Shown: positions 5,942-22,931 of the stretch, piece by piece | Position numbering within the stretch: the stretch's first letter is position 1 | How the letters are laid out: every line of letters begins with the position of its first letter | Origin: a virus | Virus record (IMG/VR): IMGVR_UViG_3300000256_000006 | Coordinates: 1 to 33,091 of that record | Strand: one strand, 5' to 3' | Length of the DNA: 33,091 bases | Made by a program: the position numbers and the translations under genes | Notes under the pieces: model-generated | What the model was told of the DNA's origin: nothing | Database searches by the model: none | The model's input: only the letters and a program-made list of their open reading frames with translations

Positions 5942-6008
5942 TTTATATACCTTTTTAATTAACTTATCTTTATTTTTAATTATTTTATTTTTCATTTGTT
6001 TGCATACT

Positions 6009-7499
6009 TTAATAGCTTGTACATACCTTGATACCATACTTTTCTGTCCATCGTTTGGCATCTTCTTCAGTATTAACCATGGGTTCACCTCTTATGTTTA
6101 AACTTGTGTTTAGCAACATAGGACAGTCTGTTAATACATACCATTTTTCTAATAACTCTCTAACTCCAGTATGATCGTTTCTACCCACAGTTTGCACACG
6201 ACTAGACTTGTCATGGTGTACAATAGCAGGATATTCAAAAGGATACTTACAGTTATACGTAAATTGCATATACGGGCTACTATCAAAAGCAGGCATATCA
6301 AAGTATTCATGAGCGTGTTCTTCAAGTATTATTGGAGCAAATGGTCTAAACTTTTGTCTACGTTTAATTTCGTTAACACGGTCTTTGATATCAGCACCTC
6401 TAGGGTCCGCAAGTAAACTCCTAGTACCTAATGCTCTAGGCCCAAACTCTGCTCGTCCTGCGGCTACTCCTACTATCTGATTTTCTATTAGTTCACTAAC
6501 AATGTCATCACTGGGATATATTCCAGGAATATTTGTACCCAAATATGGCCCTTTCCAAGTTAAACGTTTGCCATAACTTAGAGCAGCAGCACCTAAACTA
6601 CTACCACAGTCTCCTGGATTTGGCATAATCCATAATCTATTCCAACATTCACGTATTCTACTATTAGCGACACAGTTTAAAGCAACACCTCCCATGAATA
6701 CACAATCATCATAGTCAGGATACTCTGAAGCAAGTTGGCGCATTAGTGTACTTAAACAACGTTCGACTACTAGTTGTGCGCTGAGTGCAAGGCTATTTTT
6801 GTCAATGTCAGGCAATACTCCTTTAGGAATTCCTGCATGAAAATTAATCTTCCATGTTTGATTGTGATCTTCATTTACACAGGCTGACCATACATCCCTA
6901 TACCAATTTGGCATACCATAAGCCGCCATGCCCATAAGTATATACTCTTCTTCCATAGGCTTAAGACCAACTGCTTCTGTCATTGCACTATAGAATAATC
7001 CCATACTATTTGGATATCGTTTCTTTAAAACTGGTTTATACTGAGCTATACCTTTATCATCATAGCTCGCAAGATATGCGCTATAAGTATCCCATTCACC
7101 AATAGCATCAATTACAACTACAACAGCCTTTTCAAATGGTGATGTTTGAAATCCGGCCGCAGCATGGCTTAAATGATGTGAATAAGTTTTAATAGGACGG
7201 GTTATTCCAACCTCTGCTAAATGTTGCTTAGGGCTTTTATCTCTAAAAATTTTACTCCACTCGCCACTATACATTTGGCGAGTTTTTTTAAGCCATGGAC
7301 GTTCATACCAGGCAACTGTGCCATAATTCCCATAACTTAAGGCTTCGTCTATTATATCCTGATTTAAATTAGGATCGTTCTTAATACGACTGTATCGTTC
7401 ACTATGAGCCGCAAACAAGATATCTCCATCTGGACTTATAACACTAACACCAGCATCATGAAATCCTGCACTTACACCAATGGTATTAGGCGGCCTCAT
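6009..7499 (-). CDS. NodU/CmcH-family carbamoyltransferase
   Basis: O-carbamoyltransferase that makes carbamoyl-adenylate from carbamoyl phosphate and ATP and transfers the carbamoyl group to a hydroxyl, usually on a sugar or antibiotic. The N-terminal Kae1-like domain carries the metal-binding HHLSHA motif (residues 108-113), followed by DAIGEWDT near 131 and a GGVALN stretch. The C-terminal domain carries EFGPRALGTRS, RPFAPIILEE and NTSLNIRGEP, all close to the family consensus. Starting at the ATG at 7499 gives 496 residues and a 4-nt ATGA overlap with purM; the longer frame to 7550 adds residues that look like purM antisense. It probably acts on a cell-surface or virion glycan, in keeping with the aminotransferase and glycosyltransferase-like genes. 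Confidence 0.92.
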   Translation of the reverse strand: MRPPNTIGVSAGFHDAGVSVISPDGDILFAAHSERYSRIKNDPNLNQDIIDEALSYGNYGTVAWYERPWLKKTRQMYSGEWSKIFRDKSPKQHLAEVGITRPIKTYSHHLSHAAAGFQTSPFEKAVVVVIDAIGEWDTYSAYLASYDDKGIAQYKPVLKKRYPNSMGLFYSAMTEAVGLKPMEEEYILMGMAAYGMPNWYRDVWSACVNEDHNQTWKINFHAGIPKGVLPDIDKNSLALSAQLVVERCLSTLMRQLASEYPDYDDCVFMGGVALNCVANSRIRECWNRLWIMPNPGDCGSSLGAAALSYGKRLTWKGPYLGTNIPGIYPSDDIVSELIENQIVGVAAGRAEFGPRALGTRSLLADPRGADIKDRVNEIKRRQKFRPFAPIILEEHAHEYFDMPAFDSSPYMQFTYNCKYPFEYPAIVHHDKSSRVQTVGRNDHTGVRELLEKWYVLTDCPMLLNTSLNIRGEPMVNTEEDAKRWTEKYGIKVCTSY

Positions 7500-8353
7500 A
7501 TTACTTTGCCTATCACAACCGCATCCGGAATATCGATCGAATCTACACAATTGGTAACAACAATCATGCCGTAACCACAGTTAAAAACACTTTCAAATTC
7601 ATGTCTTGGAAGTTTACTTCTTTCCAACAAATCACTCCAAAAGCCATCCGGTATATCGTACTGTAATTCATAATTATAATCGCCTAATATACGAGGCAGA
7701 TTACCGTGTATTCCACCGCCAGTAATGTGAGCGCATGCCTTGATCCAGTCCTTGTTGTCCAGTATCTCGTTTGTATAGATACGTGTTGGTGTCAGTGGTA
7801 TCTCATGGCTGGGTAATAATTTACGTAGTAGGCTATATCCATTAGCATGAGGACCGCTACTAGGAATACCTAGCAATATATCTCCATGTGTTACATACCT
7901 AGGAAGAGTATAAAATCTATCATCCGGATCTATCACACCCATGCAAAATCCTGCTAGGTCGAATTTAGTACCTTCGTATACTCCGGGCATTTCAGCAGTT
8001 TCTCCGCCTACAAGTTCACAGCCTGCTAGTTCACATCCTAATTTAATACCCGCAAGTATACTTTTACTTTTTTCTAAGTCCAGTTTACCTGTGGCATAAT
8101 AATCTAGAAAACTATGCGGTTTTGCACCCGAACACAATACATCGTTTGTACACATAGCAACAAGATCAATGCCTATTGTATCAAACTTGTTGCGTTCTTC
8201 AGCAACTAGTAACTTTGTACCAACACCGTCAGTACTAAGCACAACCAGCACACTGCCTAGGTCTATGATAGCGCCATAATCTTTAAAGCCCAGATGCTTT
8301 ACTAACTTGTCTGCTAGTTCCACATCCACACCACTATCTTTATAAGAAATCAT
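7496..8353 (-). CDS. purM: phosphoribosylformylglycinamidine cyclo-ligase (AIR synthetase), shortened
   Basis: Catalyses ATP-dependent ring closure of FGAM to AIR in purine synthesis. Core motifs are intact: SYKDSGVD at the N-terminus, DGVGTK, GIDLVAMCTND, the FLDYYATGKLD loop, GCELVGGETAEMPG, SSGPHANGYS and ITGGG. The product has 285 residues against about 345 in cellular PurM. The missing residues are the linker between the N-terminal motif and DGVGTK, parts of the C-terminal domain and the last tail after FNCGYGM. Shortened PurM proteins are known in marine cyanophages, where they are thought to support nucleotide supply. Its ATG overlaps the stop of the 33-aa gene (ATGA), and its stop overlaps the carbamoyltransferase start, so all three are coupled. 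Confidence 0.93.
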   Translation of the reverse strand: MISYKDSGVDVELADKLVKHLGFKDYGAIIDLGSVLVVLSTDGVGTKLLVAEERNKFDTIGIDLVAMCTNDVLCSGAKPHSFLDYYATGKLDLEKSKSILAGIKLGCELAGCELVGGETAEMPGVYEGTKFDLAGFCMGVIDPDDRFYTLPRYVTHGDILLGIPSSGPHANGYSLLRKLLPSHEIPLTPTRIYTNEILDNKDWIKACAHITGGGIHGNLPRILGDYNYELQYDIPDGFWSDLLERSKLPRHEFESVFNCGYGMIVVTNCVDSIDIPDAVVIGKVI

Positions 8354-8464: not shown

Positions 8465-8797
8465 TTAAAGGTAAACTAGGTATCGATATAAACCCAGCAT
8501 TAGTGATCCAGTAATTACTGTACCTGTTATCATTGCAGTCCAAAACCCTACATATGGCATTGTATATACAAATATAGGAAAAAACAATAAACTTACGCCT
8601 ACAAAGTATACGGTTTGTATACTAATTGTTTTAAATGTTTGCTCGTCTACACCGCTGTAGTACATGAATACAAATGCTACAAAACTAGCCAGTGGTATAC
8701 CCAGCACAAATGCTCCTATGGTAGGATATTTTTGACTCACAGTGCTTACAGTTGCAATTACTGCTCCACCTATAATAGCTTTAATTAGTAGTTCCAA
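8465..8797 (-). CDS. small four-helix membrane protein (DUF3147-like)
   Basis: About 110 residues with four hydrophobic segments (roughly residues 5-22, 27-45, 60-80 and 85-105), split by a short loop SGVDEQTFKT. Pattern and length resemble the DUF3147 family of small inner-membrane proteins, a tentative match. I chose a TTG start at 8797 (protein begins LELLIKAIIGG, read as Met) because DUF3147-type proteins begin at this hydrophobic segment and an AAGGA lies about 11 nt upstream. The ATG at 8854 would overlap the upstream radical SAM gene by 74 nt. With the TTG start the overlap is 17 nt. Its role is unknown; it might sit with surface-modification enzymes at the membrane. Confidence 0.65.
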   Translation of the reverse strand: MELLIKAIIGGAVIATVSTVSQKYPTIGAFVLGIPLASFVAFVFMYYSGVDEQTFKTISIQTVYFVGVSLLFFPIFVYTMPYVGFWTAMITGTVITGSLMLGLYRYLVYL

Positions 8798-10067
8798 TAC
8801 CGGGTATTTCCTTCCACCACTTAATAAGTTCAGGATCACGTAACGTGTCCACAAACCTTGTCCCTTTTCTACCTGTATCCAGACTTTCCATTCTTTGCTT
8901 GGCTCTGCATCTGGCCTCGAGATATACTTCCGACGGATACTCTTCTTCGAACGTTGGTCGATTAATTAGGTTTGTTAACACGTCACGCATTGCGCCGGGA
9001 GTTGCCGGCATTATACTATTAATTATCTGTTCTAGAATGGGCCGTGGAAGAAAGAGTGGACTCATTGCAATATCTGGAGTAAATGCAAACGTAGTCTTTG
9101 CTAATACTTCTACACCCAACTCATCTGCTAATTTAATAATTTCAGGTACCTCAAATAATCCAGGAGTAGTTAATGTAAAGTCTATACGCATCATGCGTCT
9201 GTTTCTAGCATGTCCTAGGCCTTGTTTAAAGTTTTCTAACCACTCGTCATATTTTAACCCAGTTCGTATATACTCTCCTACTTCACCAACACCATCTAGG
9301 CTAGCACATATTTGCCAGTCTCTAATTTTATCCAGTATATCATTGTACAAGTTTACGCCTTGATAGTCAATACGGCTTAGGTTTGTATTATAACGTGCAT
9401 ATAGTCCTGGGCCGTCCCCTAGTTCAATAATGCGTTGCATGTATCGCCAATGTTGTTCATACATAAGAGGCTCGCCACCAACCCAGTATATTTCTTCTAT
9501 ACGATGTTCTTCCACTGCTTGACTAAACTCAGCTTCTATCTGTGTGTCTTGATAGTTGCTAATTTGTTTTTTTACTGCTGGTTCCATCCAGGGTTCTATT
9601 TTGCCAGCTTTACGTGCTTCTGTTTCCCAGCTTGAACTTAGCATAGGGCCACACATACGACATTTAAAGTTACACAAATTACTAAAACGATAGTCCCAAC
9701 TAACAGGCTTCATTGTTGTATAACCAGTTTCGTCAGTGCTAGCAACAACTTCAGGATACTTGTGTGCAAACAAGTGTCCAAAATAATCACGATAAACGTC
9801 AGTGTTAAGTAGTTTCTTATCACATACTTCACACTCAGCTGGCACGATATTGTTCATCATATCACGTCTTACTCTACGAATACGTTCACTGTTCCAGTAC
9901 TCGTCTAAACTTTGTGGAGTGTATACGTTATCACCAGCATCAGTGTCAATGTATTGTGTAAAACTCTGTGCAGGTTCTCTACTAGCACAACATAGGCGTC
10001 TTTCTGTGACAGGTGACAAATACGTGTGAACCCAAGGTGCAAGGCATAAATTATCAGGCTTGTTCAT
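8781..10067 (-). CDS. N-terminal-twitch radical SAM protein 1
   Basis: Radical SAM enzyme with a SPASM/twitch-like cysteine domain placed before, not after, the barrel. N-terminal part: CLAPW (Cys8), CC at 26-27, then CEVC at 79-82, which should bind an auxiliary iron-sulphur cluster. The barrel holds CNFKCRMCG (Cys132, 136, 139) for the SAM cluster and GGEP at 197-200 for SAM binding. At 428 residues it matches the domain architecture called N-twitch radical SAM in phages and bacteria. Its ATG overlaps the previous gene by 14 nt. It belongs to the same subgroup as the next two genes (PW after the first Cys, a CC pair, CRxCG). The reaction is unknown; radical SAM twitch enzymes include MoaA and the aminocyclitol dehydrogenase BtrN. 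Confidence 0.9.
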   Translation of the reverse strand: MNKPDNLCLAPWVHTYLSPVTERRLCCASREPAQSFTQYIDTDAGDNVYTPQSLDEYWNSERIRRVRRDMMNNIVPAECEVCDKKLLNTDVYRDYFGHLFAHKYPEVVASTDETGYTTMKPVSWDYRFSNLCNFKCRMCGPMLSSSWETEARKAGKIEPWMEPAVKKQISNYQDTQIEAEFSQAVEEHRIEEIYWVGGEPLMYEQHWRYMQRIIELGDGPGLYARYNTNLSRIDYQGVNLYNDILDKIRDWQICASLDGVGEVGEYIRTGLKYDEWLENFKQGLGHARNRRMMRIDFTLTTPGLFEVPEIIKLADELGVEVLAKTTFAFTPDIAMSPLFLPRPILEQIINSIMPATPGAMRDVLTNLINRPTFEEEYPSEVYLEARCRAKQRMESLDTGRKGTRFVDTLRDPELIKWWKEIPGIGTTN

Positions 10068-11280
10068 AGTTTAAGAGCTGAGCTAATTTAACATGACTAT
10101 TACTTAAATGTTTGTCTCTTATCGTGTCAACCTCATTTAACTTTCTACGCAATGCATTCCCATCATTTTCATCGCTTCGTTGAGTTACAATAAATTTAAT
10201 ACTTCTAATCCTCTCTTCAAACTCAGGATGCATTACTATACATTTGTCCAAACTTATCATAGTAGGAGTCTTAAGACTAAGCGGTAAATTAAATAAACTA
10301 AATTCTTCTGGATCGTGCATTAAATTAAAATGTATATCAGGAATACCAGTTTGTTTAAACCAGCTAAGTATCTCACTCATGTACATTGTATTTTGTACAT
10401 TCCAAGTGGTACATACCTGGAACTCCAGTGGATACCCCTGGTCTTTAAGTTCTACAAACTTATTAATATTAGAGTTTACTGTTGTCCACTTTGCGCCATC
10501 ACGTTCGTACTCAAACTTATCTCCTACATTGTCAATGCTAAATGCAATTTGTACATTCTTAAAGTGTTTCCATACTTCACGTTGCTTGGGAAATTGCGTA
10601 CCATTTGTATTATAATGTATATCGATGTTACCAGCATATCCCTGATCTACTGCACGTTGTAGTAAATCAAAATGCTGTTTAATTAAGAAGGGCTCCCCGC
10701 CAGTAAATTCAAAGTACTGTATGTTTGGAAGTAGTTCGTCTAAGTGTTCCCAAAACTGTTTACTAGATCGAGGCCAACGTCCTTGTTTTAGCCAGTCGTT
10801 GGCTATATGATCTTTGCCTCCGTGTGCAGCTTCTTCTTGTGCCCACTTACTGCTTGACCATGGACCACATATACGACACTTTAAGTTGCAGATATTTCCC
10901 AGTTTAAGGTCTAAAAAGATTATGTTGTCACCATCTAGATTCTGATAGTCTATTTTTTGATCATAATCTTTAAACTTCTCTAACATGTACTGACGTTTGC
11001 TTTTTTTGTCAGCATCTTCTTCTTTAAAACACCGTTGACATGCACTGGGTTGTTTATTTTTACTAAATGCATATCTAAGATCCTGCATTTCTTCACTGCG
11101 AAATACTTCTTCCAGGCTATGAGTTTTAATGTTTACGTCTATTAACTCCCTGTCATACAAACAGCAAGGACGAAATCCACCTAAAGGAGTTGTTTCTAAA
11201 CTTATCCATGGCAATACACATCTATTTGGTATTTCTTTTCCAGTATAGTCTGGTAAAAACTTATCATTATCCATATTCAT
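10054..11280 (-). CDS. N-terminal-twitch radical SAM protein 2
   Basis: Same architecture as its neighbours: CVLPW (Cys21), CC at 39-40, CQRC at 81-84, then the SAM-cluster motif CNLKCRICG (Cys131, 135, 138) and GGEP at 194-197. After GGEP come the usual barrel strands with DIHYNTNGTQ and an FSIDNVGDKFEYERDG stretch. All cluster ligands are intact, so it should be active. At 408 residues it is the shortest of the five. The ATG at 11280 overlaps the previous stop by 14 nt; a second ATG lies at 11274 with a better-spaced AAGG. It clearly differs from proteins 1 and 3 outside the motifs, so these are not recent copies. Confidence 0.9.
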   Translation of the reverse strand: MNMDNDKFLPDYTGKEIPNRCVLPWISLETTPLGGFRPCCLYDRELIDVNIKTHSLEEVFRSEEMQDLRYAFSKNKQPSACQRCFKEEDADKKSKRQYMLEKFKDYDQKIDYQNLDGDNIIFLDLKLGNICNLKCRICGPWSSSKWAQEEAAHGGKDHIANDWLKQGRWPRSSKQFWEHLDELLPNIQYFEFTGGEPFLIKQHFDLLQRAVDQGYAGNIDIHYNTNGTQFPKQREVWKHFKNVQIAFSIDNVGDKFEYERDGAKWTTVNSNINKFVELKDQGYPLEFQVCTTWNVQNTMYMSEILSWFKQTGIPDIHFNLMHDPEEFSLFNLPLSLKTPTMISLDKCIVMHPEFEERIRSIKFIVTQRSDENDGNALRRKLNEVDTIRDKHLSNSHVKLAQLLNYEQA

Positions 11281-12559
11281 TAAGCCTTTCTAATTCAGGA
11301 AACACACTATAAAAGTTTTGATTTCTATAACGATCAAGAAAACTTAATTTATTTTTTAATTCAGAAATATGCTTAGTGTTATCAGTGTTAGTAATATAAT
11401 TCACTGCGGCCATATATCCTTTACTTGCTCTACTAAATTCATCTAATGGTTTTAAGTATTCTATATGATCATTGTATTTTTGTACAACTTCTTCTTTCAT
11501 CACTTCTGGTAATACGTCAATACGATAGTATTCTGGACTTTGCAAAATATTAATGTTCCAATCCATAGGCCTTACTAGTTCTAACTCAATCCACTCTTTA
11601 TGGAAATCTGGCAAGTGGTAACTATTCATAATACTTAATGTACTGCTCACATAAAAGTCTACAGTTGGGCATATTTTCAGCATTTCTTCACGGTTCTTAA
11701 CAACCTTTGACCACACTGTGCCATGACGCATTAGCTCTGCACGTTCATAACTTGCATCTAAACTTGCTCCTATACTAACACATTCAAATTCATTCCATAA
11801 CGGCAGTACACTATCGCCTTTAAATACCAGCTCTGTAAAGTTTGTATTGTATACTAATTTAACATCATTACGTCCTTGGCGCAGCAATTCCTTTAAAAGA
11901 TCATAATGTTCCTGCATCATTAGAGGTTCACCACCAGCAAAATATACTTCTTCTAAATATGGAATATGAGGAAGTAATTGCTCCCATGCATCTGTTTTAT
12001 ATCTACCTGCGTAACTTACATTAGGATGATCTGGCTTAAGCCATTGCATCTTCTTAGCTTCTTTAACCCAATTACTACTAAAAACATCTCCACAACTTCT
12101 GCATGCTAAGTTACATAAGTTGCTAAAACGTATATCGTAGTACCTAATCTTAAACTCATCACTATCCAGTGTTTTTATGTGATGGCCAAAGTTTTTGTTA
12201 CTACTGTTACGCATGCTAAAGAAGCCGTTGTCTTCTTGTTCATAGCATTTGGTACACACCTCACTTTTTATCTCATTAAGCATGTTATTTCTTAGTTCTT
12301 GCATTGGTTTGTCACGCCAAATTTCTTCCATGGTGTTTTCTCGCAATGAGCCAACATGGTTCTCATACTTTGCTAAACAACAAGGATAGGCTCTGCCGTC
12401 TGGATATGCATGCAAGTGTATCCAGGGTAGGATACAAAAAACATCACTTTTGATCAGCAGTTCAGCTTCTGTGGGGGTTAGCTCGTCCATGCTGATCTTT
12501 AGTGGCTCTCTACTTCCGTAATCCCAGCCTTCGTAATAGTTTTCTAGTTTATCTGTCAT
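11267..12559 (-). CDS. N-terminal-twitch radical SAM protein 3
   Basis: 430 residues from the ATG at 12559. This start gives a 4-nt ATGA overlap with the upstream gene; the frame could be extended to a TTG at 12574, but that looks less likely. Motifs: FCILPW (Cys42), CC at 60-61, CTKC at 102-105, CNLACRSCG (Cys149, 153, 156) and GGEP at 209-212. It carries about 20 extra residues before the first Cys compared with protein 2. It is part of the same coupled chain and shares subgroup signatures with proteins 1 and 2. Reaction and substrate are unknown; no precursor peptide gene adjoins it. Confidence 0.9.
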   Translation of the reverse strand: MTDKLENYYEGWDYGSREPLKISMDELTPTEAELLIKSDVFCILPWIHLHAYPDGRAYPCCLAKYENHVGSLRENTMEEIWRDKPMQELRNNMLNEIKSEVCTKCYEQEDNGFFSMRNSSNKNFGHHIKTLDSDEFKIRYYDIRFSNLCNLACRSCGDVFSSNWVKEAKKMQWLKPDHPNVSYAGRYKTDAWEQLLPHIPYLEEVYFAGGEPLMMQEHYDLLKELLRQGRNDVKLVYNTNFTELVFKGDSVLPLWNEFECVSIGASLDASYERAELMRHGTVWSKVVKNREEMLKICPTVDFYVSSTLSIMNSYHLPDFHKEWIELELVRPMDWNINILQSPEYYRIDVLPEVMKEEVVQKYNDHIEYLKPLDEFSRASKGYMAAVNYITNTDNTKHISELKNKLSFLDRYRNQNFYSVFPELERLNEYG

Positions 12560-13875
12560 AGTGTTATGTACCAATCTTTTAACTCTGGAAATGTCGTTTC
12601 AAAGTTTTTGTTTCTTCTTACGTCATATTGTTGGTAGAATTGCTTAAAATCATTGTGTAGTTTAGGCATTTCAAATGCTTCGTTGTGTGGTGTGTTAATA
12701 ACTTGTAAATATTCAATAAGTCTTTCCACCTGCCCTCGTTCGAAATCATGCAAGTCCCAGTTTAAAACATAACTGAGTCTACCAGCACATACATTTTTTA
12801 CACTCTGTGGTAATACTAAACAACTCTGAAAACTAGGAAAGCGTAATATATTTAAACTGAATACACCAAAGTCTTTGCCAAGTTCCTGTCTTTTGTAAAG
12901 TATTTTAAATATAAGATCTGGTAAAGTACCCAAGCATAATGCATTAACTGTCATCATACAGTGTGTGCTTATACCTGCTTCACTAAGTCGCACTAAATTA
13001 TCCCACCAATAATCATAATGCAATCCATCTCTAATATATTCTGCATGGCTGCCTGTTGCTTCGCAACTTGTATAAACATCTAAACTTGGTAAATGTTGTC
13101 TTGCATCTATTAATTTGTCTATAAGTTCTGGTTTGCCTCCTAAATTACTGTTAATAGCTAAATGTGTTTTACTTTTGTCTGTATTAACCTTAAACCAATC
13201 TAATAATTTCCATAGTTCCGGACTCATTAAGGGTTCACCACCTGTAATACGTAGCTCGCGTAATGTTCGGTGTAAGTCTGTTTCCCACCATTTAAAAAAT
13301 GCTTCCACGTATGGATTGTATTCATTTAATCCAAATAGTTGGTTGTTATCATGAGTATGAGTAAAGTGATTACGACCATCACTAGTGAGATTGTTATAAC
13401 TGCCATGTTTTTTTAGATCATTAACCCAAGTAGTACTAAAAGCAGGATTACAGTAACTACATGCAAAGTTACATGTTCTGTCAAAGGCAATCTCTAGTGT
13501 GCGGAGATTTACATCGTCTTCACTGGGTGTTTCGTAAAACTCCTGTAATTCTTCGTTGCTGTAGATCGTCGATTTGTATACACGGTCGCTTACATATTTA
13601 GGACCCATGTCCTCTATTTTCCAGCAATACTCACATCCCTTGGGACGCTCGCCTACCTGCATTAGGCGGCGTTGCTCTTTCTTTTCAGGAGTATTGTGAA
13701 GGAGTTTAGGATTTTTTTGTACCTCTAGAGGATCTACTTTATGTGGTAACGGATGATGGCAACTCGTAGTCATTCCACTGCCTAACCAAATAGTAGCATT
13801 TCCCCATTTAGCACCACAAAAACTAGCACTCTTTGTGTCTAATTGTTGTTGTTTAAATTCAAGATCTGTTAGCAT
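12556..13875 (-). CDS. N-terminal-twitch radical SAM protein 4 (second subgroup)
   Basis: 439 residues. The N-terminal domain differs from proteins 1-3: SFCGAKW (Cys20), SCHHPLPHK (Cys39), a HNTPEKKEQRR stretch, then CEYCWKIEDMG (Cys81 and Cys84), with a single Cys where the first subgroup has CC. The barrel carries CNFACSYC (Cys135, 139, 142), NPAFSTTW directly after it, and GGEP at 212-215. These features are shared with protein 5 and define a second subgroup, probably with a different auxiliary-cluster environment or substrate. The start overlaps the gene before it by 17 nt and the stop overlaps the next start by 4 nt. The substrate is unknown. Confidence 0.9.
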   Translation of the reverse strand: MLTDLEFKQQQLDTKSASFCGAKWGNATIWLGSGMTTSCHHPLPHKVDPLEVQKNPKLLHNTPEKKEQRRLMQVGERPKGCEYCWKIEDMGPKYVSDRVYKSTIYSNEELQEFYETPSEDDVNLRTLEIAFDRTCNFACSYCNPAFSTTWVNDLKKHGSYNNLTSDGRNHFTHTHDNNQLFGLNEYNPYVEAFFKWWETDLHRTLRELRITGGEPLMSPELWKLLDWFKVNTDKSKTHLAINSNLGGKPELIDKLIDARQHLPSLDVYTSCEATGSHAEYIRDGLHYDYWWDNLVRLSEAGISTHCMMTVNALCLGTLPDLIFKILYKRQELGKDFGVFSLNILRFPSFQSCLVLPQSVKNVCAGRLSYVLNWDLHDFERGQVERLIEYLQVINTPHNEAFEMPKLHNDFKQFYQQYDVRRNKNFETTFPELKDWYITL

Positions 13876-15232
13876 TATATTCGCATGTACTCCAAAACTC
13901 AGTCATTCCTGGAAACGTTTCTAAAAAGTTTGTCCCACGTCGACGATCATGTTCGCTAAAAAAGCGATAAAAGTCTGCTTGTTTGCGCTCAATATCAGAT
14001 GTTCCTTGTTGCATCCACTGTAAGTCCCTACGCATTTTAAGTACTTCATAGTCCTTAAAGCCATGCATCTCGTCCAGGTTATCGTTCATAAAATTAATAC
14101 AATCCCAAATACATTGTTGATAACTTTTTGGTAGTATCTGCATACTCTGCCATTCTGGAGTTCTTAGCAATGGAGTATCAAACCAAATACGTTGGTATGT
14201 AGTAGTATGTTCTTTGCGTAGATATAAAATGTGTTCCAGTAATTGTTTAAGACTAACAATGCTAAGATTGTTCATTGTAATAATAAACGTTAAACTGCTT
14301 CTGCTAGGAACGTCCCTAACAAACTCTTCACATCTATTTATTGCTAGGTCAAAGTCTAAACCATGCCGTATATACTCTGCTTGTTCACCCCAGGTATCTA
14401 AACTTACAAACTGCATAAAGTGTTCTATCTGCTCGCCTTCACATAAGCGTTGCACATATCCTTTGTACTTGTCCCATATTTTAGGTTCAGTACTAAAGTT
14501 ACTGGTAACGTTTAAGTGCAAGTCTGACTTAGGGTTTTCCAACACATAATCAAATACTTTGTATGTATTAGGATCCATCATAGGCTCGCCGCCTGTCATA
14601 CGGAAATGTTTTAGTTCTTTATATAAATCAGGCCACCAACGCCAAAATGCTTCACGGTATGGATTATGTTCTCTATTAGGGATCGGACGTCGATCTCCTG
14701 TAAAGTGTGCAGGATCATTATGTGGTGTGTTAGTAGGATATGCGCCAAGTTCTTTTACTTCTTGTTCCCATGTACTGCTAAATTGCGGACTGCAATAACT
14801 ACATTTTAAATTACATGCGTGATTAAAATTTACTTCTACGTAGCTTGGATTATGGTCTACTAATGGGTTTGCTACAATATCATCAAAACTTTGCATGGCC
14901 CATGGCTCACCACTACGATAATGCCTATCGCTCATGTTTCCTTGTTTTTCTATATTCCAACAGTAGTTACATTCACTATGCTTAACTTTAGTAAATGGAT
15001 CTACCATTTCTTTACGGCGTTCTTTTTTGTGCTCTGTATTATGTAAAGCACTAGGATTATCTGCAAGAGACTCCACGGGAATCTTATGCAATGGTGGATG
15101 GTAACAACTATTAGTATGCCCAGTTGTTAAATGTAAACTTGTTTGCTTCCACTTAGCCAAACAGAAACTACCGCTTACTCCAGCCATTTTTCCTTTGGCT
15201 ATTTGTGCATCGTCTAAATAATCACTCACCAT
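13859..15232 (-). CDS. N-terminal-twitch radical SAM protein 5 (second subgroup)
   Basis: 457 residues, the largest and first-transcribed of the five. Motifs in order: SFCLAKW (Cys24), SCYHPPLHK (Cys43), HNTEHKKERR, CNYCWNIEKQG (Cys88, Cys91), then SDRHYRS. The barrel has CNLKCSYC (Cys140, 144, 147), SPQFSSTW and GGEP at 214-217. It is plainly homologous to protein 4 over its full length. It overlaps the DGD-type glycosyltransferase-like gene by 7 nt, which ties the radical SAM chain to sugar-modifying genes at translation level. An intact set of ligands predicts an active enzyme; its chemistry cannot be told from sequence. Confidence 0.9.
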   Translation of the reverse strand: MVSDYLDDAQIAKGKMAGVSGSFCLAKWKQTSLHLTTGHTNSCYHPPLHKIPVESLADNPSALHNTEHKKERRKEMVDPFTKVKHSECNYCWNIEKQGNMSDRHYRSGEPWAMQSFDDIVANPLVDHNPSYVEVNFNHACNLKCSYCSPQFSSTWEQEVKELGAYPTNTPHNDPAHFTGDRRPIPNREHNPYREAFWRWWPDLYKELKHFRMTGGEPMMDPNTYKVFDYVLENPKSDLHLNVTSNFSTEPKIWDKYKGYVQRLCEGEQIEHFMQFVSLDTWGEQAEYIRHGLDFDLAINRCEEFVRDVPSRSSLTFIITMNNLSIVSLKQLLEHILYLRKEHTTTYQRIWFDTPLLRTPEWQSMQILPKSYQQCIWDCINFMNDNLDEMHGFKDYEVLKMRRDLQWMQQGTSDIERKQADFYRFFSEHDRRRGTNFLETFPGMTEFWSTCEYNANRS

Positions 15233-16140
15233 CCTTCGGTTTTCCTATAAACATCTATTTCAGCAGTCATAGGATCATGCTCATGATATGTTTGGCTGTA
15301 GTGGTGTTTAAAGAACCTGGACTCATCGCTGTTGTAATCTACTATTGGCAGTTCTAGCTTCCGCCTAAGTTGAACACCAATGCTATCAAACAAGTCTGAA
15401 TTATAATCATGTTCTTCCCAGAGTTTATCTAGAACTTCAAAGTCTCTAACATCCTGATACTCCCAGTCAGTAAGCATTAGCCTGTACGTTCCATACCTAG
15501 CACCCAGCATTGCTTGAAATCCGTGTTTAGCATCTGCTCCTACACTTTGCCAGATGCACAACTTGTCAAAGTTTTTAGCATGTACCTGCTGTTTAAATTC
15601 ATCGATACTAGGTTTGCGTCCTTTGTTCAAACACATCTTAACACCTTCTCTAAAGCCAGCTCGCCATGCATGCTTCTCGTCTCCATTTGGATACGTTGTA
15701 CTGTATACATTGTTTAATGCTATATACTTTTGATCAAAACAAAACTCTACTAGAGTTTCGTCACTGCCGTCAGTTGCTTCGTGTGTACGCATTGTATTAA
15801 TAAACTCACGTGTCCAACAACTTAGTCCGCCATTGCCATACATAAGTCCGTTAACTGAGTTGCGAGCTTTCCAACGAAATACGCAATCAGCATATTCGTC
15901 TTTGATGTCTAACTGTACGTCAAAGAACTTTTCGTCTGGAATGTTGTCACCGTCTATTAGAATAAAACGTTCAGTGTCACTAATAGCAGCCGCGGCCTTG
16001 TGTGCGGCATCACTGCCTTCAACACCGTCTACTCTTTTAGCCCAGGGTACAATATTTTGTATCTTTACCCAAAACTCTTCTTTTTGTGGTTCATCATAAC
16101 TAAGGTAAATGCAGTCTAAATCAGCAATGTCAACCAGCAT
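15226..16140 (-). CDS. glycosyltransferase-like protein with DGD motif (304 aa)
   Basis: Looks like a GT-A-type nucleotide-sugar transferase: a beta strand FILIDGDNIPD (residues 59-69) places the Asp-Gly-Asp at 63-65 where such enzymes bind the metal and sugar nucleotide. It is followed by RWKARNSVNGLMYGNGGLSCW (89-109), WRAGFREG and a GARYGTYRL stretch. The plus-strand protein at 519-1760 is a two-module relative that has lost the DGD. The protein lacks signal peptide or membrane segments, so it should act in the cytoplasm. It overlaps the oxygenase gene by 11 nt and the radical SAM gene by 7 nt. Acceptor and donor are unknown; the family assignment rests on the strand-DGD pattern and context. 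Confidence 0.7.
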   Translation of the reverse strand: MLVDIADLDCIYLSYDEPQKEEFWVKIQNIVPWAKRVDGVEGSDAAHKAAAAISDTERFILIDGDNIPDEKFFDVQLDIKDEYADCVFRWKARNSVNGLMYGNGGLSCWTREFINTMRTHEATDGSDETLVEFCFDQKYIALNNVYSTTYPNGDEKHAWRAGFREGVKMCLNKGRKPSIDEFKQQVHAKNFDKLCIWQSVGADAKHGFQAMLGARYGTYRLMLTDWEYQDVRDFEVLDKLWEEHDYNSDLFDSIGVQLRRKLELPIVDYNSDESRFFKHHYSQTYHEHDPMTAEIDVYRKTEGW

Positions 16141-16954
16141 CTTCTAACGCCTTTAATAATTTACGTTTTTCATTCTTTAGTTCTGCTTTTTCCATTTCAT
16201 CTAAACGCAAATCATTGTTTTTATTAAATACTTCGCAGTTATAACTTATGCTCCAACGTTGTCCAGAACTGCGGAAGGGCCATACACTGTGGTTAAGCCA
16301 GTTTGGAAAACAGTATATGTCTCCTACAACTGGTTTAACTTTAAAGCTAGCTAGACTAAGAGTTTGACTCCTGCCATCCCAGAAGTTAATCATACCTGCA
16401 CTTGGGTCATGGTCTTCTAGTAACCATTCCCGTTCAATATCGTCTGGCATTTGGAAATAAGCAACTCCGCTAACGTGTCCACTATGTGTATGTGGCGGAT
16501 TAAAGTCTCCAGCAATGCTAATGTTTCCCCAAACATTCTGAATATTCACACTAATAGCCATTTCTTTTAAATGCTGTTCTACTATTTCTACGTGTTTAGG
16601 TGTAAACACGCCTTTTTTAAAACGCCACTCAACTATAATAGTACTAACATAATACTGACTACAAAGGTCAGCTAAACATGATGTTAATAATGGTGTTGTT
16701 TCTGTGCCCAGCATTTCTTCGTTAATTGTAAACTCTCTTGCATTATTGCCAGCAAGCCCATAACTATTATCAATTTCATCAGGAGTTTCTAGATGTAAAT
16801 CTTTGCACTGCTGTTTAAAGATTTCTTGCATGCCAGATACTAGTTCAGGTTCCATAACAGTACGGACAATATTACAGCTAAAAGGCCGGATTACTTCATA
16901 CTTGTCTCGCATTTCCCCAAGTTGTACTCTGTCATGCACATCATTAAGCGCCAT
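16130..16954 (-). CDS. 2OG-Fe(II) oxygenase (PF13759-like)
   Basis: Probable iron and 2-oxoglutarate dependent hydroxylase. The core is visible in the right order: FNPPHTHSGHVSGVAYFQMP with metal ligands His155 and His157 (an HxH instead of the commoner HxD), a NFWDGRS strand, GDIYCFPNWLNHSVWPF with His222, and GQRWSISYN with Arg233 for 2-oxoglutarate. This pattern is that of the phage-rich PF13759 group. The ATG at 16954 was preferred to the TTG at 16963 because GGAG lies about 10 nt upstream. This gives 274 residues and an 11-nt overlap with the preceding gene. It could hydroxylate the same substrate as the radical SAM enzymes, or a virion protein; the target is unknown. Confidence 0.85.
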   Translation of the reverse strand: MALNDVHDRVQLGEMRDKYEVIRPFSCNIVRTVMEPELVSGMQEIFKQQCKDLHLETPDEIDNSYGLAGNNAREFTINEEMLGTETTPLLTSCLADLCSQYYVSTIIVEWRFKKGVFTPKHVEIVEQHLKEMAISVNIQNVWGNISIAGDFNPPHTHSGHVSGVAYFQMPDDIEREWLLEDHDPSAGMINFWDGRSQTLSLASFKVKPVVGDIYCFPNWLNHSVWPFRSSGQRWSISYNCEVFNKNNDLRLDEMEKAELKNEKRKLLKALEDAG

Positions 16955-17312
16955 CGTCTTCAATCTCCTTTATGCAAAAAAATGGATTATCTTCCAGCGT
17001 TTCTGCTGGCGTGGATGTCCAGTAATTATGATTTGCTGTTTCTATACGAACAACTACGCCATCGTGTACACGATGGTTAACATCACTTACACTGTATGAT
17101 TTATCGATTACAATATAGGGAACATCCCATACAGTATCACTAGTTACTGTACTAGCTTCTCCCATAATAAACTCTCCAGTATCTTCATTATACGGCAATC
17201 TTCGTTCTGTGTCAATCGAGCTTTTGTCAAGGCCGGCTAGTGCCTGTGCAAAGGCTTGGAATCCTTGTTCCTCGTCTTCAAAACCCATGGGTGCTAGTGG
17301 TTCATCGTTCAT
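16944..17312 (-). CDS. hypothetical protein (122 aa)
   Basis: Unrecognised. Acidic N-terminus (MNDEPLAPMGFEDEEQ), a short helix around residues 14-28, then a beta-rich C-terminal half with WDVPYIVID and VVVRIETANHNYW strands, and a final FFCIKEIEDDGA. There is no Cys cluster, signal peptide or membrane segment. It overlaps both neighbours (11 nt each side), between a glycosyltransferase-like gene and the oxygenase. It is one of only two small proteins close to the radical SAM chain, so it could be a partner or carrier, but it lacks an obvious leader and core as in peptide precursors. Confidence 0.75.
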   Translation of the reverse strand: MNDEPLAPMGFEDEEQGFQAFAQALAGLDKSSIDTERRLPYNEDTGEFIMGEASTVTSDTVWDVPYIVIDKSYSVSDVNHRVHDGVVVRIETANHNYWTSTPAETLEDNPFFCIKEIEDDGA

Positions 17313-18156
17313 ATCGTTGTATTAACTCCGGTGTACAAAAATCTTTTTGGAAGTAATGAAATGGATATTGTTGTGCATATCCTCCTACGATTAGGGAGTA
17401 GTCTTTAGTCAATGTCCAGGGAACAGCATTACGCCAATCTATGTTAGGTTTCCACCCATTAACTGCACCCTTCATGTGTGTAAAGGTTGGATAGGTTAGT
17501 TTGGACTGGGCGGCAGATGTCCCTCCCACATTATAACCTCCTCCGTCCCAGAGGGCAGCGGCAATACCAAAGATAACGTCAGTATCAGGTATATCGTAAA
17601 CATTGTAATCAAGGATAGCATTAGAAACATGCTGCCAATTTTCCAGGATGTTTCGTGCAAGTGCAAAAAAGTCCAGGCTTGCATGGGAATAGCGAATGTA
17701 CATAAAACCATTATAAATATCGACCAGGCTATTAGCATCAAAAAACTTCCTGTAGTATCTACTATTACTTACATTACCCTGATAATCTCTAACATTACTG
17801 GTTAATATAACATCGTTATGTCTACAACCTGCCCACCAATGATCCAAGCTACGTGGAACTATCATATCAGATTCTAATTTAAACGTTTCCTTAAATGGTG
17901 TAAGTTGTAAAGCACTACATTCTAAAGCAAAAGGATTTTCTTGTCGTGGAACTTCAATAACATAATTAAAAACTTTACGCTGTTTGGGTGTTATTGTCTT
18001 AGCAGACTCAGTATCCACTACTACTGCAAATTTATTTATGGCACATGTTCTCTTAATGCTCAACGCAAGAAGATATGCTTGGTTAACATAATTAACTGTG
18101 TCACTATTTTGTGCAAACGTAAGCCAACCTTGAGGCTCTACTTTTTCATTGAACAT
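17302..18156 (-). CDS. glycosyltransferase-like protein A (284 aa)
   Basis: Probable GT-A or GT8-like transferase. A strand FKLESDMIVP holds an acidic ESD (95-97) in the position of a DxD motif, preceded by TPFKE. Later come a NGFMYIRYSHASLDFF region, a DIPDTDVIFGIAAALWDG stretch and a C-terminal YPFHYFQ segment with His. It is a distant paralogue of the 259-aa protein at 18627-19406: TPFKETFKLESD matches SPFDQTLLIDVD, and both have a helix with ILENW or VQRNW followed by an acidic DV or DF and an IANQLMNG or IAAALWDG turn. It is the first gene of the chain that runs down through the five radical SAM genes. Substrate unknown. Confidence 0.7.
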   Translation of the reverse strand: MFNEKVEPQGWLTFAQNSDTVNYVNQAYLLALSIKRTCAINKFAVVVDTESAKTITPKQRKVFNYVIEVPRQENPFALECSALQLTPFKETFKLESDMIVPRSLDHWWAGCRHNDVILTSNVRDYQGNVSNSRYYRKFFDANSLVDIYNGFMYIRYSHASLDFFALARNILENWQHVSNAILDYNVYDIPDTDVIFGIAAALWDGGGYNVGGTSAAQSKLTYPTFTHMKGAVNGWKPNIDWRNAVPWTLTKDYSLIVGGYAQQYPFHYFQKDFCTPELIQRYER

Positions 18157-18211
18157 TTATCTTTATTGCTTTCCAAAATGTACTATACTACTTATTATAC
18201 TAAATAATTTT
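18157..18211. promoter_or_regulatory. divergent intergenic region, likely promoters
   Basis: The only gap within about 10 kb of packed genes. On the minus strand a perfect TATAAT (18194-18199) lies about 38 nt before the ATG at 18156, which could serve the radical SAM chain. On the plus strand TATACTAAATAA lies directly before the ATG at 18212, leaving no room for a normal leader, and no ribosome site is visible there. So the rightward gene may be leaderless or use an unusual start. No good -35 was found for either direction. Confidence 0.35.
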
Positions 18212-18637
18212 ATGAACAGCAATATATTTCACTGCGCCGTTGAGGGTGGATTTCTTGAAACAACTTTGCCGTTCTATACCGAAATCTTAGGTTGTAAATT
18301 AGGTCCTCGCGAAAAAGGCCGTTGGCAGGATATTGACTTCTGGGGCAACGAGCTTACGCTACATGAAAGTACACCACGCATGGGATTAGAAGGACACAGA
18401 CATCCTGTGGACAGAGAACAAGTTTGGGTTCCACATTTTGGAATTCATTTATCTCCCACAGATTATAGTCTGGTTGTTCGTTGTATTCAAAACGGCCCTG
18501 GGTTTTTAGATAATCCAGTTAATCGTTTTAACTCCATGGTTACTAGCCAAATTACTTTTTTTGTTGCTGATCCTAACTTTAATGTGATAGAAATTAAAAA
18601 AATGGTGGGCAACTACTATCAAAGTACTAACGTTTAG
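18212..18637 (+). CDS. VOC/glyoxalase-fold protein, extradiol-dioxygenase-like
   Basis: A small vicinal-oxygen-chelate protein of the COG3565-like group (predicted dioxygenase). Visible features are FHCAVEGG near the N-terminus with His7, FYTEILGCKLG, the IDFWGNELTLH strand, VPHFGIHLS with His75, and VIEIK with Glu127. His7, His75 and Glu127 are the usual metal ligands of the family. The product has 141 residues, a usual length. The longer frame to 18149 is unlikely, since it would overlap the divergent gene. It is the only rightward gene between 5504 and the window end, and its stop overlaps the leftward gene by 11 nt. It may be a metabolic or resistance-type gene picked up from a host; the substrate is unknown. 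Confidence 0.8.
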   Translation: MNSNIFHCAVEGGFLETTLPFYTEILGCKLGPREKGRWQDIDFWGNELTLHESTPRMGLEGHRHPVDREQVWVPHFGIHLSPTDYSLVVRCIQNGPGFLDNPVNRFNSMVTSQITFFVADPNFNVIEIKKMVGNYYQSTNV

Positions 18638-19406
18638 AATACTCTTCTAGTGATTCTCTAATTTCAGGATCCTGTAGACATTGTTTATTCATACAATGTA
18701 AGTTTGTATCTTTTATTTTTACAGCATTAAATGAATCGCCGTGCCTGTAACGTATGTATAGCTCAGTGTCTTTAACTTTGTATATAGTATCTTCTGTACT
18801 TAAACTAGCAAGCGGATGATTAAAATAGGTTCCACTACTGTAGCCATTCATTAACTGGTTTGCAATAGTTAAGCTAAAGTCATTGCGATACTTGCCAGCC
18901 TTAAATCCGTAGTACTTTGCATAGTATCGCCAGTTACGCTGTACGTTTTTCATATTTTCAAATATATTATGAGCTAACTGACACTTGCGGAAGTAAACTA
19001 CTGTAGCCCAAAGCATGGGCAATCCTGATCTAGTCATAGTGACATCATTTTTAAAACTATTTGTTTGTGTAACATCCCAAACTTTATCGTAACACAAGAA
19101 CTCATGATTTGTATCAAAGTATTGTGCTAGATTGCTGTTAAACGACAAATAGTCTACGTCTATCAACAAGGTTTGATCAAATGGACTTAGGTCGTATGCT
19201 AGTGTTCTATCAGCATTGTACCAGGGTACTGTTACAGTACTATTGTGCCAGCGAAACGCTCTAACATTACCAGGTACTGCATCACCTACGTGTATGTGTG
19301 TATCAATACCTAGATGTTTTTGTACGAGCCTTGCGGCAAGTTCTGCAAAGCCTATATAGTCTATTGTTTCATGTGGTGTAGCAAGAAGTAGTGCGCCTTT
19401 ACTCAC
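18627..19406 (-). CDS. glycosyltransferase-like protein B (259 aa)
   Basis: Paralogue of the 284-aa protein at 17302-18156. The LLIDVDYLSFN strand gives a proper DVD motif (83-85) for metal and nucleotide sugar, preceded by SPFDQ. A WATVVYFRK strand, a helix ending VQRNWRYYAKYYGF and DFSLTIANQLMNG follow. The C-terminal part has a GDSFNAVKIK stretch. The start is a GTG at 19406, with an 8-nt overlap with the preceding gene. A short convergent overlap with the VOC gene ends it. The presence of DVD here against ESD in the paralogue suggests divergence in donor or activity. Confidence 0.7.
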   Translation of the reverse strand: MSKGALLLATPHETIDYIGFAELAARLVQKHLGIDTHIHVGDAVPGNVRAFRWHNSTVTVPWYNADRTLAYDLSPFDQTLLIDVDYLSFNSNLAQYFDTNHEFLCYDKVWDVTQTNSFKNDVTMTRSGLPMLWATVVYFRKCQLAHNIFENMKNVQRNWRYYAKYYGFKAGKYRNDFSLTIANQLMNGYSSGTYFNHPLASLSTEDTIYKVKDTELYIRYRHGDSFNAVKIKDTNLHCMNKQCLQDPEIRESLEEYSKR

Positions 19407-19731
19407 TAAGCTGCCCTACTCTACGTACTTTTTTTAACTCTTGGTATTGATTGTGCCAATCATTTAGTACTTCATACCAACGAGCTCTGCACCTTTCATG
19501 CATTGCTTCTGCACTATCAATGTATACTGGGTTATCATAATCATCTATTAAATATAAATCTGTATGATCTTCCCAGGTGTTTAAAAAGCTCATAAGCTCC
19601 ATGGTTACCTGGAATTGCCCACCGCCATAAGTGATAGTTAGACGTTGTTCTTGCTGTTCTTTTAATGTGAGACGCTGACGATTGTGATCCAATCGCTGGC
19701 GTGCAAAATCTTCAAAGTTTTCTATATCCAT
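19399..19731 (-). CDS. hypothetical phage protein (110 aa)
   Basis: Unrecognised, but with the look of a small conserved phage protein. A charged N-terminal helix rich in Gln/Arg (residues about 5-30, coiled-coil-like) is followed by a strand pair, then LYLIDDYDNPVYID and a long helix with RARWYEVLNDWHNQYQELKKVRR. No Cys cluster or membrane segment. It is translated ahead of the glycosyltransferase-like gene (8-nt overlap) and sits just downstream of the fibre block, separated by a hairpin. It could be a fibre assembly or adaptor protein; this is only positional inference. Confidence 0.7.
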   Translation of the reverse strand: MDIENFEDFARQRLDHNRQRLTLKEQQEQRLTITYGGGQFQVTMELMSFLNTWEDHTDLYLIDDYDNPVYIDSAEAMHERCRARWYEVLNDWHNQYQELKKVRRVGQLSE

Positions 19732-19790: not shown

Positions 19791-20750
19791 TTAGGATTCT
19801 GTATTTGTTACTGTAGCGAACGTTACTGTTCCAACAGTATCAGTAATGTATGTGGTTGCTGGTGGTATTGCTGTAAATACGTCAGTTTTGTTACCATCAA
19901 CCTGATCAAGAACATTATAAATGTTTTTGTTATAGGATGTACTATCAGTAGCATCGTCTTTCCATGTACACTTTAAGTGAACAATATCTGAAATGTTGCC
20001 GCGGCTATCGCCATGTGCTGCTCCTGCTTTAACTTCTAACTGCCAATAATTGGCCGTATAAGGCGCAGTGTCTGCAACTTGCTTATAATGAACAACATAA
20101 CTTGTTGTTAAATCGTAGTATCCATTAGTTGATAAGTTAGTAGCTGGAGTACCTGACCCGCCATTTTTTTCCAGTGTGGTTGCACGTAGTCTAACAGTAC
20201 CAATAAGTGTATCAATTAAGTCCAGCCACTCGTTGTATTTTGCGTCTGCTGTGCCTCCTGCTAGTCCTGGAGCAACTTCAATATATCCGCCACTATTAAA
20301 GAAGTAACGTGCTTCGTCACCGCCAGCAAATGTGCAGGTAACTTCATGAACAATAGTATTTGTAAAAGTACCAGTTGATGTTAGCGTTTCTGTGTCTTTT
20401 GTAGTAGTAGTACTAGCTGCAACACTACCGCCAGCAACTGCTGTATCTAAAGTACCAATATCTGTTGCTAATGCACCGATAGCTGTAATTAGGTCACTTG
20501 TACTTGGATTAGTTACTGAATCTACAGTAATGTTTCCATCTTGTACAGTATGATCACTGATTGATTTAATTCTTGTTAGTAGTGTAGCCCATTGGGATGC
20601 AGTAATGGAATTTCCATCTGAAACACTAGAAACTGTTGTTGTTTGACCCCAGCCTCTAATTCCGGTGCCTTGGCCCCACAATGCATTAACACTAGTAACA
20701 AAACCATTATAGTGGGTATCAAGGATTGTATCACCCGTTGTATATGCCAT
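19791..20750 (-). CDS. phage structural protein (319 aa)
   Basis: Likely virion protein. The N-terminus (MAYTTGDTILDTHYNGFVTSVNALWGQGTGIRGWGQ followed by VSDGNSITASQWATLLTRI) matches the style of conserved virion proteins in marine T4-like phages, which share the HYNxFVxxVNxLWG and GWGQ-type features. The remainder is Thr/Ser/Gly-rich and beta-sheet-like, including EARYFFNSGGYI and a YNEWLDLIDTLIG helix. There is no signal peptide. An AAGGA about 9 nt before the ATG, preceded by a TATAAATT box, supports this start. It is the last of the leftward structural genes. It could be a baseplate or fibre-associated protein; the exact position in the virion is unknown. Confidence 0.75.
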   Translation of the reverse strand: MAYTTGDTILDTHYNGFVTSVNALWGQGTGIRGWGQTTTVSSVSDGNSITASQWATLLTRIKSISDHTVQDGNITVDSVTNPSTSDLITAIGALATDIGTLDTAVAGGSVAASTTTTKDTETLTSTGTFTNTIVHEVTCTFAGGDEARYFFNSGGYIEVAPGLAGGTADAKYNEWLDLIDTLIGTVRLRATTLEKNGGSGTPATNLSTNGYYDLTTSYVVHYKQVADTAPYTANYWQLEVKAGAAHGDSRGNISDIVHLKCTWKDDATDSTSYNKNIYNVLDQVDGNKTDVFTAIPPATTYITDTVGTVTFATVTNTES

Positions 20751-20769
20751 TTAGTTTTTTCCTTATCTA

Positions 20770-22206: not shown

Positions 22207-22232
22207 CTTTTATTTCTCCACGAGCTTTAAAT

Positions 22233-22240
22233 TATTTATC
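22233..22240 (-). promoter_or_regulatory. probable T4-type late promoter box GATAAATA
   Basis: GATAAATA on the minus strand, 26 nt before the ATG of the 478-aa fibre gene (22206) and followed by a GGAG ribosome site. One base from the T4 late consensus TATAAATA. Spacing matches the box before the 915-aa gene, and both lie in the short gaps between structural genes. Confidence 0.5.
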
Positions 22241-22261
22241 ATGTTATATAAACTAACAATA

Positions 22262-22927
22262 TTATAAACTTGTTAGATTAGTTAAAGTTTGGATACGAAT
22301 TGTGTAATCAATTTGTATCAGCCTGTTCAAGCTCTTCTGAACAGGATGGAAAATAACATGAGTTAATAACTTGCCCGTATTAACTGTTCCGATCCAACTT
22401 TTAAGGCCTAGCTCATCAAATGTATATGTATCATTAAAATTACTAGTATTATCAAATGCTTGCTGATCATTGGGTTCACCATAATCTAACAGGCAACTAA
22501 CAACAGTATCAGTATAAATGTTTCCACTTACATGACTTACTGTTAATTTATTTCTTCCAGCATCTGTATTTAAACTGGAATTATCGTCTACTACCTTGTA
22601 GTAGGTTTGATTATATAAACTGGCATTCTGTCCACTGCTATTAGCTGGCAAATATGTAATTACGCCTGTTGGATCAACGCTCGTGCCTCCATTGCCAAAA
22701 GCTATTTCATGAATAAAACCAGTTGTTTTATTACTCACACTTAACGCTAGTGCTTCACTCATATTCTCATAGTGAATAGCATTTCGTTTGTTTACAATAT
22801 CTTCTCCAGTTTCCGGATCAAAGATACGAATGTGACCTTCCATCATTACCCCGCCTTGTTCTTTAAGGGGAGTAGTGGGTTGTGGATTTTCTAAATTTTC
22901 CATATTTTCTTTTTCACTGTCTTGCAT
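22262..22927 (-). CDS. phage structural protein (221 aa)
   Basis: Probable virion protein. The first 30 residues are charged and Glu/Asn/Pro-rich, then a folded region carries IRIFDPETGEDIVNKRNAIHYENMSEALALSV. A HEIAFGNGGTSVDPTGVITYLPANS segment and a YNQTYYKVVDD segment follow, and the rest is beta-rich. This order (a charged start, then FGNGGTxVDxTG) is one I associate with conserved structural proteins of marine T4-like phages, but I cannot name the T4 counterpart. AAAGG about 9 nt before the ATG and a 4-nt gap to the upstream 915-aa gene indicate joint translation. It may form an adaptor between fibres and baseplate. Confidence 0.7.
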   Translation of the reverse strand: MQDSEKENMENLENPQPTTPLKEQGGVMMEGHIRIFDPETGEDIVNKRNAIHYENMSEALALSVSNKTTGFIHEIAFGNGGTSVDPTGVITYLPANSSGQNASLYNQTYYKVVDDNSSLNTDAGRNKLTVSHVSGNIYTDTVVSCLLDYGEPNDQQAFDNTSNFNDTYTFDELGLKSWIGTVNTGKLLTHVIFHPVQKSLNRLIQIDYTIRIQTLTNLTSL

Positions 22928-22931
22928 TATA

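Follow-up and report, generated by a model that had tools for sequence, protein, structure and literature searches.

What does a phage do with five radical SAM (S-adenosylmethionine) enzymes of a single family, encoded side by side next to its tail fibres? The question is raised by a 33,091-nucleotide stretch of viral DNA, here called the window, which covers positions 1 to 33,091 of the 48,263-bp IMG/VR record IMGVR_UViG_3300000256_000006. Nine of its minus-strand genes are chained head to tail from position 18156 down to 8781. They include five consecutive N-twitch radical SAM genes (R5 to R1 in order), a 2-oxoglutarate (2OG)-Fe(II) oxygenase and two glycosyltransferase-like genes (GTc and GTb). 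A first-pass annotation, made from the sequence alone, proposed a multistep decoration pathway on a glycan or a virion protein. The notion of a pathway whose genes are kept together is well supported by the analysis reported here, and a glycan is favoured over a peptide as its substrate. The chances are about even that the locus, which adjoins the tail-fibre block of a jumbo T4-superfamily phage, is a cassette for assembling and tailoring a glycan. The more specific proposal, made more tentatively, is that the five radical SAM enzymes form a dedicated pathway by which a hitherto unknown sugar or glycan (or a protein modification) is built on the tail fibres.

Conservation was assessed across 24 distinct IMG/VR loci, namely those that carry all five genes, with loci of near-identical R3 collapsed. 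The five enzymes all exceed the curated whole-protein cut-off of NF033640 (N_Twi_rSAM; 170 bits, scores in Table 1), and the whole record yielded exactly five members of this family in an independent six-frame search. The CxxxCxxC and N-terminal twitch cysteines are invariant in every locus: C8/C26/C27/C79/C82 (twitch) with C132/C136/C139 (CxxxCxxC) in R1, and correspondingly C21/C39/C40/C81/C84 with C131/C135/C138 in R2, C47/C65/C66/C107/C110 with C154/C158/C161 in R3, C20/C39/C81/C84 with C135/C139/C142 in R4, and C24/C43/C88/C91 with C140/C144/C147 in R5. A GGEP motif is present in 24/24 loci for each enzyme. The SPASM domain PF13186 was matched at the N terminus of R1–R3, with the R1 match slightly under the cut-off. 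The ratio of nonsynonymous to synonymous change (dN/dS), measured where synonymous change is unsaturated, is 0.06–0.15 for the radical SAM genes; GTc is less constrained, reaching 0.39 in one pair. The motifs are intact and none of the five genes is degraded, as first annotated, and purifying selection maintains the motif residues of all five.

It is hardly credible that these genes are drifting duplicates without separate roles. They do share a single family, and R4 and R5 form sister clades (support 0.997). However, pairwise identity among the five is only 24–35%, dN/dS is low, the cluster ligands are invariant, and each enzyme forms its own clade across the 24 loci (supports of 1.0, 1.0, 1.0, 0.99, and 0.85 for R1 to R5), so the orthologue analysis already contradicts this explanation. 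R1–R5 are not recent duplicates; they are five old enzymes, each maintained separately.

The five genes also keep their company. Behind a tail-fibre gene and a small conserved gene (u110), the order and strand GTd-GTc-GTb-R5-R4-R3-R2-R1 are retained in 22 of the 24 loci, with R1 and R2 swapped in two; variable cargo fills gaps of up to approximately 3 kb between members. So as not to rely on the enzymes alone, a further search was seeded from GTb. N-twitch radical SAM genes occur in all 66 GTb loci with at least 4 kb of downstream sequence (as the next gene in 33), and GTc, GTd, and tail fibres occur in all 76 with at least 4 kb upstream. In a scan seeded from the family profile, 51 of 54 loci of at least 17 kb contained four or more radical SAM genes. 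Both scans considered the best 80 of at least about 600 matching stretches, and best matches favour the nearest lineage; the number of matches itself indicates that the NF033640-type viral family is abundant. Nine related contigs of 220–347 kb carry 7–17 family members each, while 14 control genomes searched with the same threshold yielded none. Because the loci were gathered by homology, and come from fragmentary contigs, these counts are not independent samples of viruses. Nevertheless, co-occurrence in the two scans is not what single scattered copies without shared partners would produce, and the expectation that the genes stay together is borne out. The core reaches upstream to GTd, u110, and the tail-fibre genes, and downstream usually to a carbamoyltransferase. 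A second type of cluster was also observed, which contains R3- and R2-like genes without GTd, GTc, or GTb in the vicinity. In this type (L047:11197-13356 and relatives), a 719-aa B12-binding radical SAM protein directly adjoins the N-twitch radical SAM genes.

The partner genes indicate what the enzymes might act on. Of the two genes first described as glycosyltransferase-like, GTc is upheld by its glycogenin profile match, which places it with the GT8 glycosyltransferases, while the case for GTb is structural: Foldseek matches of its AlphaFold model are mostly GT-A glycosyltransferases and sugar nucleotidyltransferases (E about 1e-3), D63 and D65 are invariant, and no sequence family was matched. 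GTb is probably a GT-A protein. A third glycosyltransferase, GTd, lies just outside the 8781-18156 interval; it is homologous to GTc and its DxD-type aspartates are invariant. Two related loci (L091:7036-8964 and L126:8207-11101) encode in-frame fusions of a GTb-like domain with an N-twitch radical SAM protein, preceded in the latter by several related repeats; a third fusion (L104:6415-8349) was judged from length and position only. The 2OG-Fe(II) oxygenase is correctly identified (PF13759), but it occurs in 6/24 distinct loci, so it was rejected as a core step and is better regarded as optional cargo. It has H158-x-H160 at the position of the HxD of a classical 2OG enzyme. The small protein u122 had no family match in profile searches.

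Cargo in related loci belongs to nucleotide-sugar and glycan chemistry (cytidylyltransferases, NDP-sugar epimerase/RmlD, GT7, UDP-glucose dehydrogenase, C-methyltransferases, and DegT) and also includes B12-radical SAM proteins and the C-terminal domain of a mannose-phosphate isomerase. A sugar substrate is favoured because GTc is a glycogenin-like GT8 protein, GTd is its homologue, and GTb is a probable GT-A protein. Three further likenesses seen by eye were not confirmed by Pfam and were not used as evidence: the N-terminal R5 extension of L064 to a sulfotransferase, the C-terminal domain of L115 to an SGNH hydrolase, and family f3 to GT10.

A profile of R3 relatives matches the BtrN twitch (residues 12–83 to BtrN 184–258), with the homologous domain placed N-terminally and not C-terminally as in BtrN, and its core matches viperin. 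Fold matches of the R3 model are to general radical SAM enzymes (viperin, CteB, anSME, BlsE, and QueE); their low TM-scores say little, since the permuted order of twitch and core defeats Foldseek alignment. By profile as well as by fold, the best PDB match of the radical SAM core is viperin, which could suggest a pathway to a soluble metabolite, a viperin-like nucleotide, or a hypermodified DNA base. This is very improbable, as R1–R5 score 18–28 bits (best 27.7) against the viperin model NF038283, whose cut-off is 180, and as the genes are consistently linked to those for tail fibres and glycosyltransferases rather than to replication genes. Alternatively, the radical SAM enzymes could act on tail-fibre side chains by epimerisation, cross-linking, or C-H functionalisation, with the glycosyltransferases separate or acting on the products. 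Many SPASM/twitch enzymes modify peptides, and CteB, anSME, and SuiB are among the best fold matches. However, all five proteins fall far below the curated cut-offs of peptide-maturase (ribosomally synthesised and post-translationally modified peptide, RiPP, SPASM) equivalog models. The RiPP recognition domain PF05402 is not matched in any of them at E <= 0.01, a search that does not cover stand-alone or divergent recognition elements, and the neighbours are sugar enzymes rather than peptidases or transporters. Side-chain modification is accordingly judged improbable, and a glycan substrate is favoured.

For the favoured glycan pathway, we infer the sugar substrate, the reaction types, the order of steps, and the tail-fibre acceptor as follows. 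GTd and GTc (GT8-type) and GTb (GT-A-like) would assemble a glycan in the host cytoplasm. The five non-redundant N-twitch enzymes would then successively modify its sugars by radical chemistry, such as epimerisation, dehydrogenation, or deoxygenation, as in BtrN or NeoN. In each, the CxxxCxxC cluster would generate a 5'-deoxyadenosyl radical, and the N-terminal twitch cluster could serve as electron acceptor or donor. The glycan would be finished by the carbamoyltransferase, joined in some phages by an oxygenase, methyltransferase, or aminotransferase. The likeliest acceptor would be a tail-fibre protein encoded just upstream.

The choice of acceptor rests on two observations. In a simple Kyte-Doolittle scan, only 1 of 301 cassette genes encodes two or more hydrophobic segments, which leaves no flippase, polymerase, or membrane glycosyltransferase and suits a soluble protein acceptor. 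Taken together with the position after tail fibres in every testable GTb locus, this favours a virion protein modified in the cytosol. Several points weigh against this reading. The SPASM/twitch relatives of the enzymes most often modify peptides, the GT-A similarity of GTb is weak (TM about 0.3), and GT8 enzymes of lipopolysaccharide (LPS) core synthesis are likewise soluble, without membrane segments. In the Vibrio phages K566 and KVP40, comparable genes adjoin nucleotide-metabolism genes, away from tail fibres. Published interpretations of such regions prefer a change of the host surface, both for the glycosyltransferases of the pelagimyophage host recognition cluster (PMC7029224) and for jumbo-phage polysaccharide clusters (PMC7824862).

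This points to the main rival explanation, in which the same chemistry remodels a host surface glycan (LPS core or another polysaccharide), blocking superinfection or altering adsorption. Besides the published view, a K566 GT8 protein weakly matches LPS 3-alpha-galactosyltransferase, and Bacteroidota homologues sit in surface-polysaccharide-like clusters. The near absence of membrane-associated genes speaks against it, as does the location directly after the tail fibres in 76/76 loci, although tail fibres and receptor modification could be co-selected. We consider host-surface remodelling possible but rather unlikely, and the tail fibre is ranked above the host surface as acceptor, though not decisively.

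Table 1. Features of the window that belong to, or adjoin, the radical SAM cassette.
Feature	Coordinates	Strand	Evidence
GTa, 413 aa, GTb-related, same island	519..1760	+	in GTb single-linkage family; recurs near radical SAM genes
DegT/DnrJ/EryC1 sugar aminotransferase, accessory	1698..2696	-	PF01041 152 bits
O-carbamoyltransferase, downstream partner	6009..7550	-	PF02543/PF16861; near R1 in 19/24 loci
R1, N-twitch radical SAM enzyme, 428 aa	8781..10067	-	NF033640 290 bits; monophyletic orthologues, 24 loci
R2, N-twitch radical SAM enzyme, 408 aa	10054..11280	-	NF033640 335 bits; orthologues in 24 loci
R3, N-twitch radical SAM enzyme, 435 aa	11267..12574	-	NF033640 378 bits; BtrN-twitch and viperin-core profile matches; model confidence (pLDDT) 94
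R4, N-twitch radical SAM enzyme, 439 aa	12556..13875	-	NF033640 306 bits; 136 invariant residues, 24 loci
R5, N-twitch radical SAM enzyme, 457 aa, sister of R4	13859..15232	-	NF033640 315 bits; 156 invariant residues, 24 loci
GTb, GT-A-like putative glycosyltransferase, core partner of radical SAM genes	15226..16140	-	AlphaFold pLDDT 92; weak Foldseek matches; invariant D63-x-D65
2OG-Fe(II) oxygenase, optional member	16130..16963	-	PF13759 65.4 bits, cut-off 27
u122, small protein without family match	16944..17312	-	12 loci, closer relatives only
GTc, GT8-family glycosyltransferase, glycogenin-like	17302..18156	-	glycogenin profile match, E 4.6e-8
GTd, GT8-like glycosyltransferase, GTc paralogue	18627..19406	-	hhalign probability 99.8 to GTc; DxD = D83/D85
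u110, small conserved protein encoded between the tail-fibre and glycosyltransferase genes	19399..19731	-	upstream in 71/76 GTb loci
Tail-fibre genes tf19, tf20, tf22, tf23; putative glycan acceptors	19791..25679	-	PHROG tail fibre matches for tf20 and tf23

In the record, the minus strand runs from baseplate wedge and hub genes through a giant structural protein and the tail-fibre genes to u110, GTd, GTc, u122, the oxygenase, GTb, and R5-R4-R3-R2-R1. The nine-gene overlapping chain is real, but its overlaps are 7–20 nt when each open reading frame is counted from the first start codon after a stop, not the 4–17 nt first given. A plus-strand gene (18149-18637) splits GTd from GTc here and in a close relative, L051. 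Past R1 lie genes for a small membrane protein, PurM, the carbamoyltransferase, a Na/Pi-type protein, ThyX, the DegT aminotransferase, and GTa, for which no Pfam or PHROG match was found. ThyX, PurM, the short Na/Pi-type protein, and the carbamoyltransferase are grouped at 3213-8353; ThyX and PurM look like nucleotide metabolism unrelated to the cassette. The window shows no enrichment of T4-type late promoters (TATAAATA, CTAAATA), which fall under the shuffle mean, so expression timing could not be argued from them.

The baseplate wedge protein is nearest to those of jumbo T4-superfamily phages (Phosso, Atu_ph07, SCTP-2, and CBB types; 33–37% identity), which identifies the phage as a relative of this group. 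Among phage records, megablast of the window found no near relative at the DNA level, and GTb and GTd had no match. In cellular genomes, Bacteroidota contigs (L145, L163, and L179) carry an N-twitch radical SAM gene followed by a carbamoyltransferase. The genes beyond it in L163 read, on sequence inspection, as a glycosyltransferase, a short-chain dehydrogenase/reductase (SDR) epimerase, and a UDP-sugar dehydrogenase, so that the neighbourhood reads as a putative exopolysaccharide cluster. Such neighbourhoods are only supporting evidence, since the cellular tally is diffuse (radical SAM 11, carbamoyltransferase 4, and PhyH 4 of 100). Several contigs labelled as bacterial metagenome-assembled genomes (MAGs) of Pelagibacter, Flavobacterium, Rhodobacteraceae, and others (L130-L134 and L198) are phage pieces with the cassette, and reflect either contaminated bins or captured infections. 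Large arrays of long N-twitch radical SAM proteins, up to eight per contig piece and up to 1,210 aa, some with tetratricopeptide (TPR)-like repeats, occur in MAG contigs of Elusimicrobia and unclassified bacteria (L146, L162, and L137). These arrays are a cellular expansion of the N-twitch family.

If the proposed pathway is correct, it would assign a role to a large radical SAM family whose name states no function. It would also be a case of virion decoration built by radical SAM enzymes, in a lineage that devotes 7–17 members of one family per genome to it, and uncultured jumbo phages would be a large reservoir of sugar-acting radical enzymes. Demanding, oxygen-sensitive chemistry would then be tied to receptor binding or surface remodelling, and the conserved partners and order would make the role of each enzyme testable. 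A first test is feasible in cultured Vibrio phages, one of which (QD01) is reported on Vibrio natriegens Vmax, making them useful laboratory models.

The first-pass annotation considered the pathway undescribed. No description of the ordered five-enzyme set was found, nor any paper on its orthology or on the fusion to a glycosyltransferase-like domain, in a search that mostly did not extend to subscription papers; radical SAM cassettes in such phage regions had, however, already been reported, without function (PMC7029224, PMC7150976). Phage glycan islands are known, while a conserved radical SAM pathway within one has not been described as such. Enrichment of radical SAM, RmlD, and glycosyltransferase genes has been reported for Tasman Sea viromes (PMC7150976) and could be accounted for by the five-enzyme cassette.

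Several known systems share parts of this arrangement. NF033640 takes in all five proteins, but its name states no function, and the fixed five-member set with its tail-fibre and glycosyltransferase partners lies outside its definition. According to the BtrN profile, BtrN/NeoN-type enzymes of aminoglycoside biosynthesis share the radical SAM core and one twitch-type auxiliary cluster domain; their twitch is C-terminal, whereas here it is N-terminal, viral, and found in five paralogues per cassette. Surface-polysaccharide clusters of jumbo phages and cyanophages share glycosyltransferases and nucleotide-sugar enzymes, and carbamoyltransferases and 2OG oxygenases occur in a related cyanophage cluster, but the text describing them makes no mention of radical SAM enzymes (PMC7824862). 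Among isolates, Vibrio phages K566, K567, and KVP40 carry several N-twitch-like radical SAM genes, which in K566 and KVP40 are annotated only as hypothetical, radical SAM, heme biosynthesis, or QueE. K566 (L129:4391-21758) encodes five family members, among which lie two GT8 genes and a GT4-like gene, while the KVP40 copies (L206) score under the family cut-off. These phages are distant (about 22–27% identity in tblastn), and no GTb, GTd, GTc, or tail-fibre order was detected in them. The pelagimyophage host recognition cluster, likewise a variable region, lies in T4-like phages next to genes for the baseplate and tail fibres and contains both GT8 glycosyltransferases and radical SAM cassettes (PMC7029224). 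Here, too, the cassette follows tail fibres and baseplate wedge and hub genes encoded on the same strand, although the nearest baseplate homologues are in jumbo phages. The pelagimyophage cluster was called hypervariable, with radical SAM genes as added cassettes (PMC7029224), whereas here five orthologues keep their order across divergent phages.

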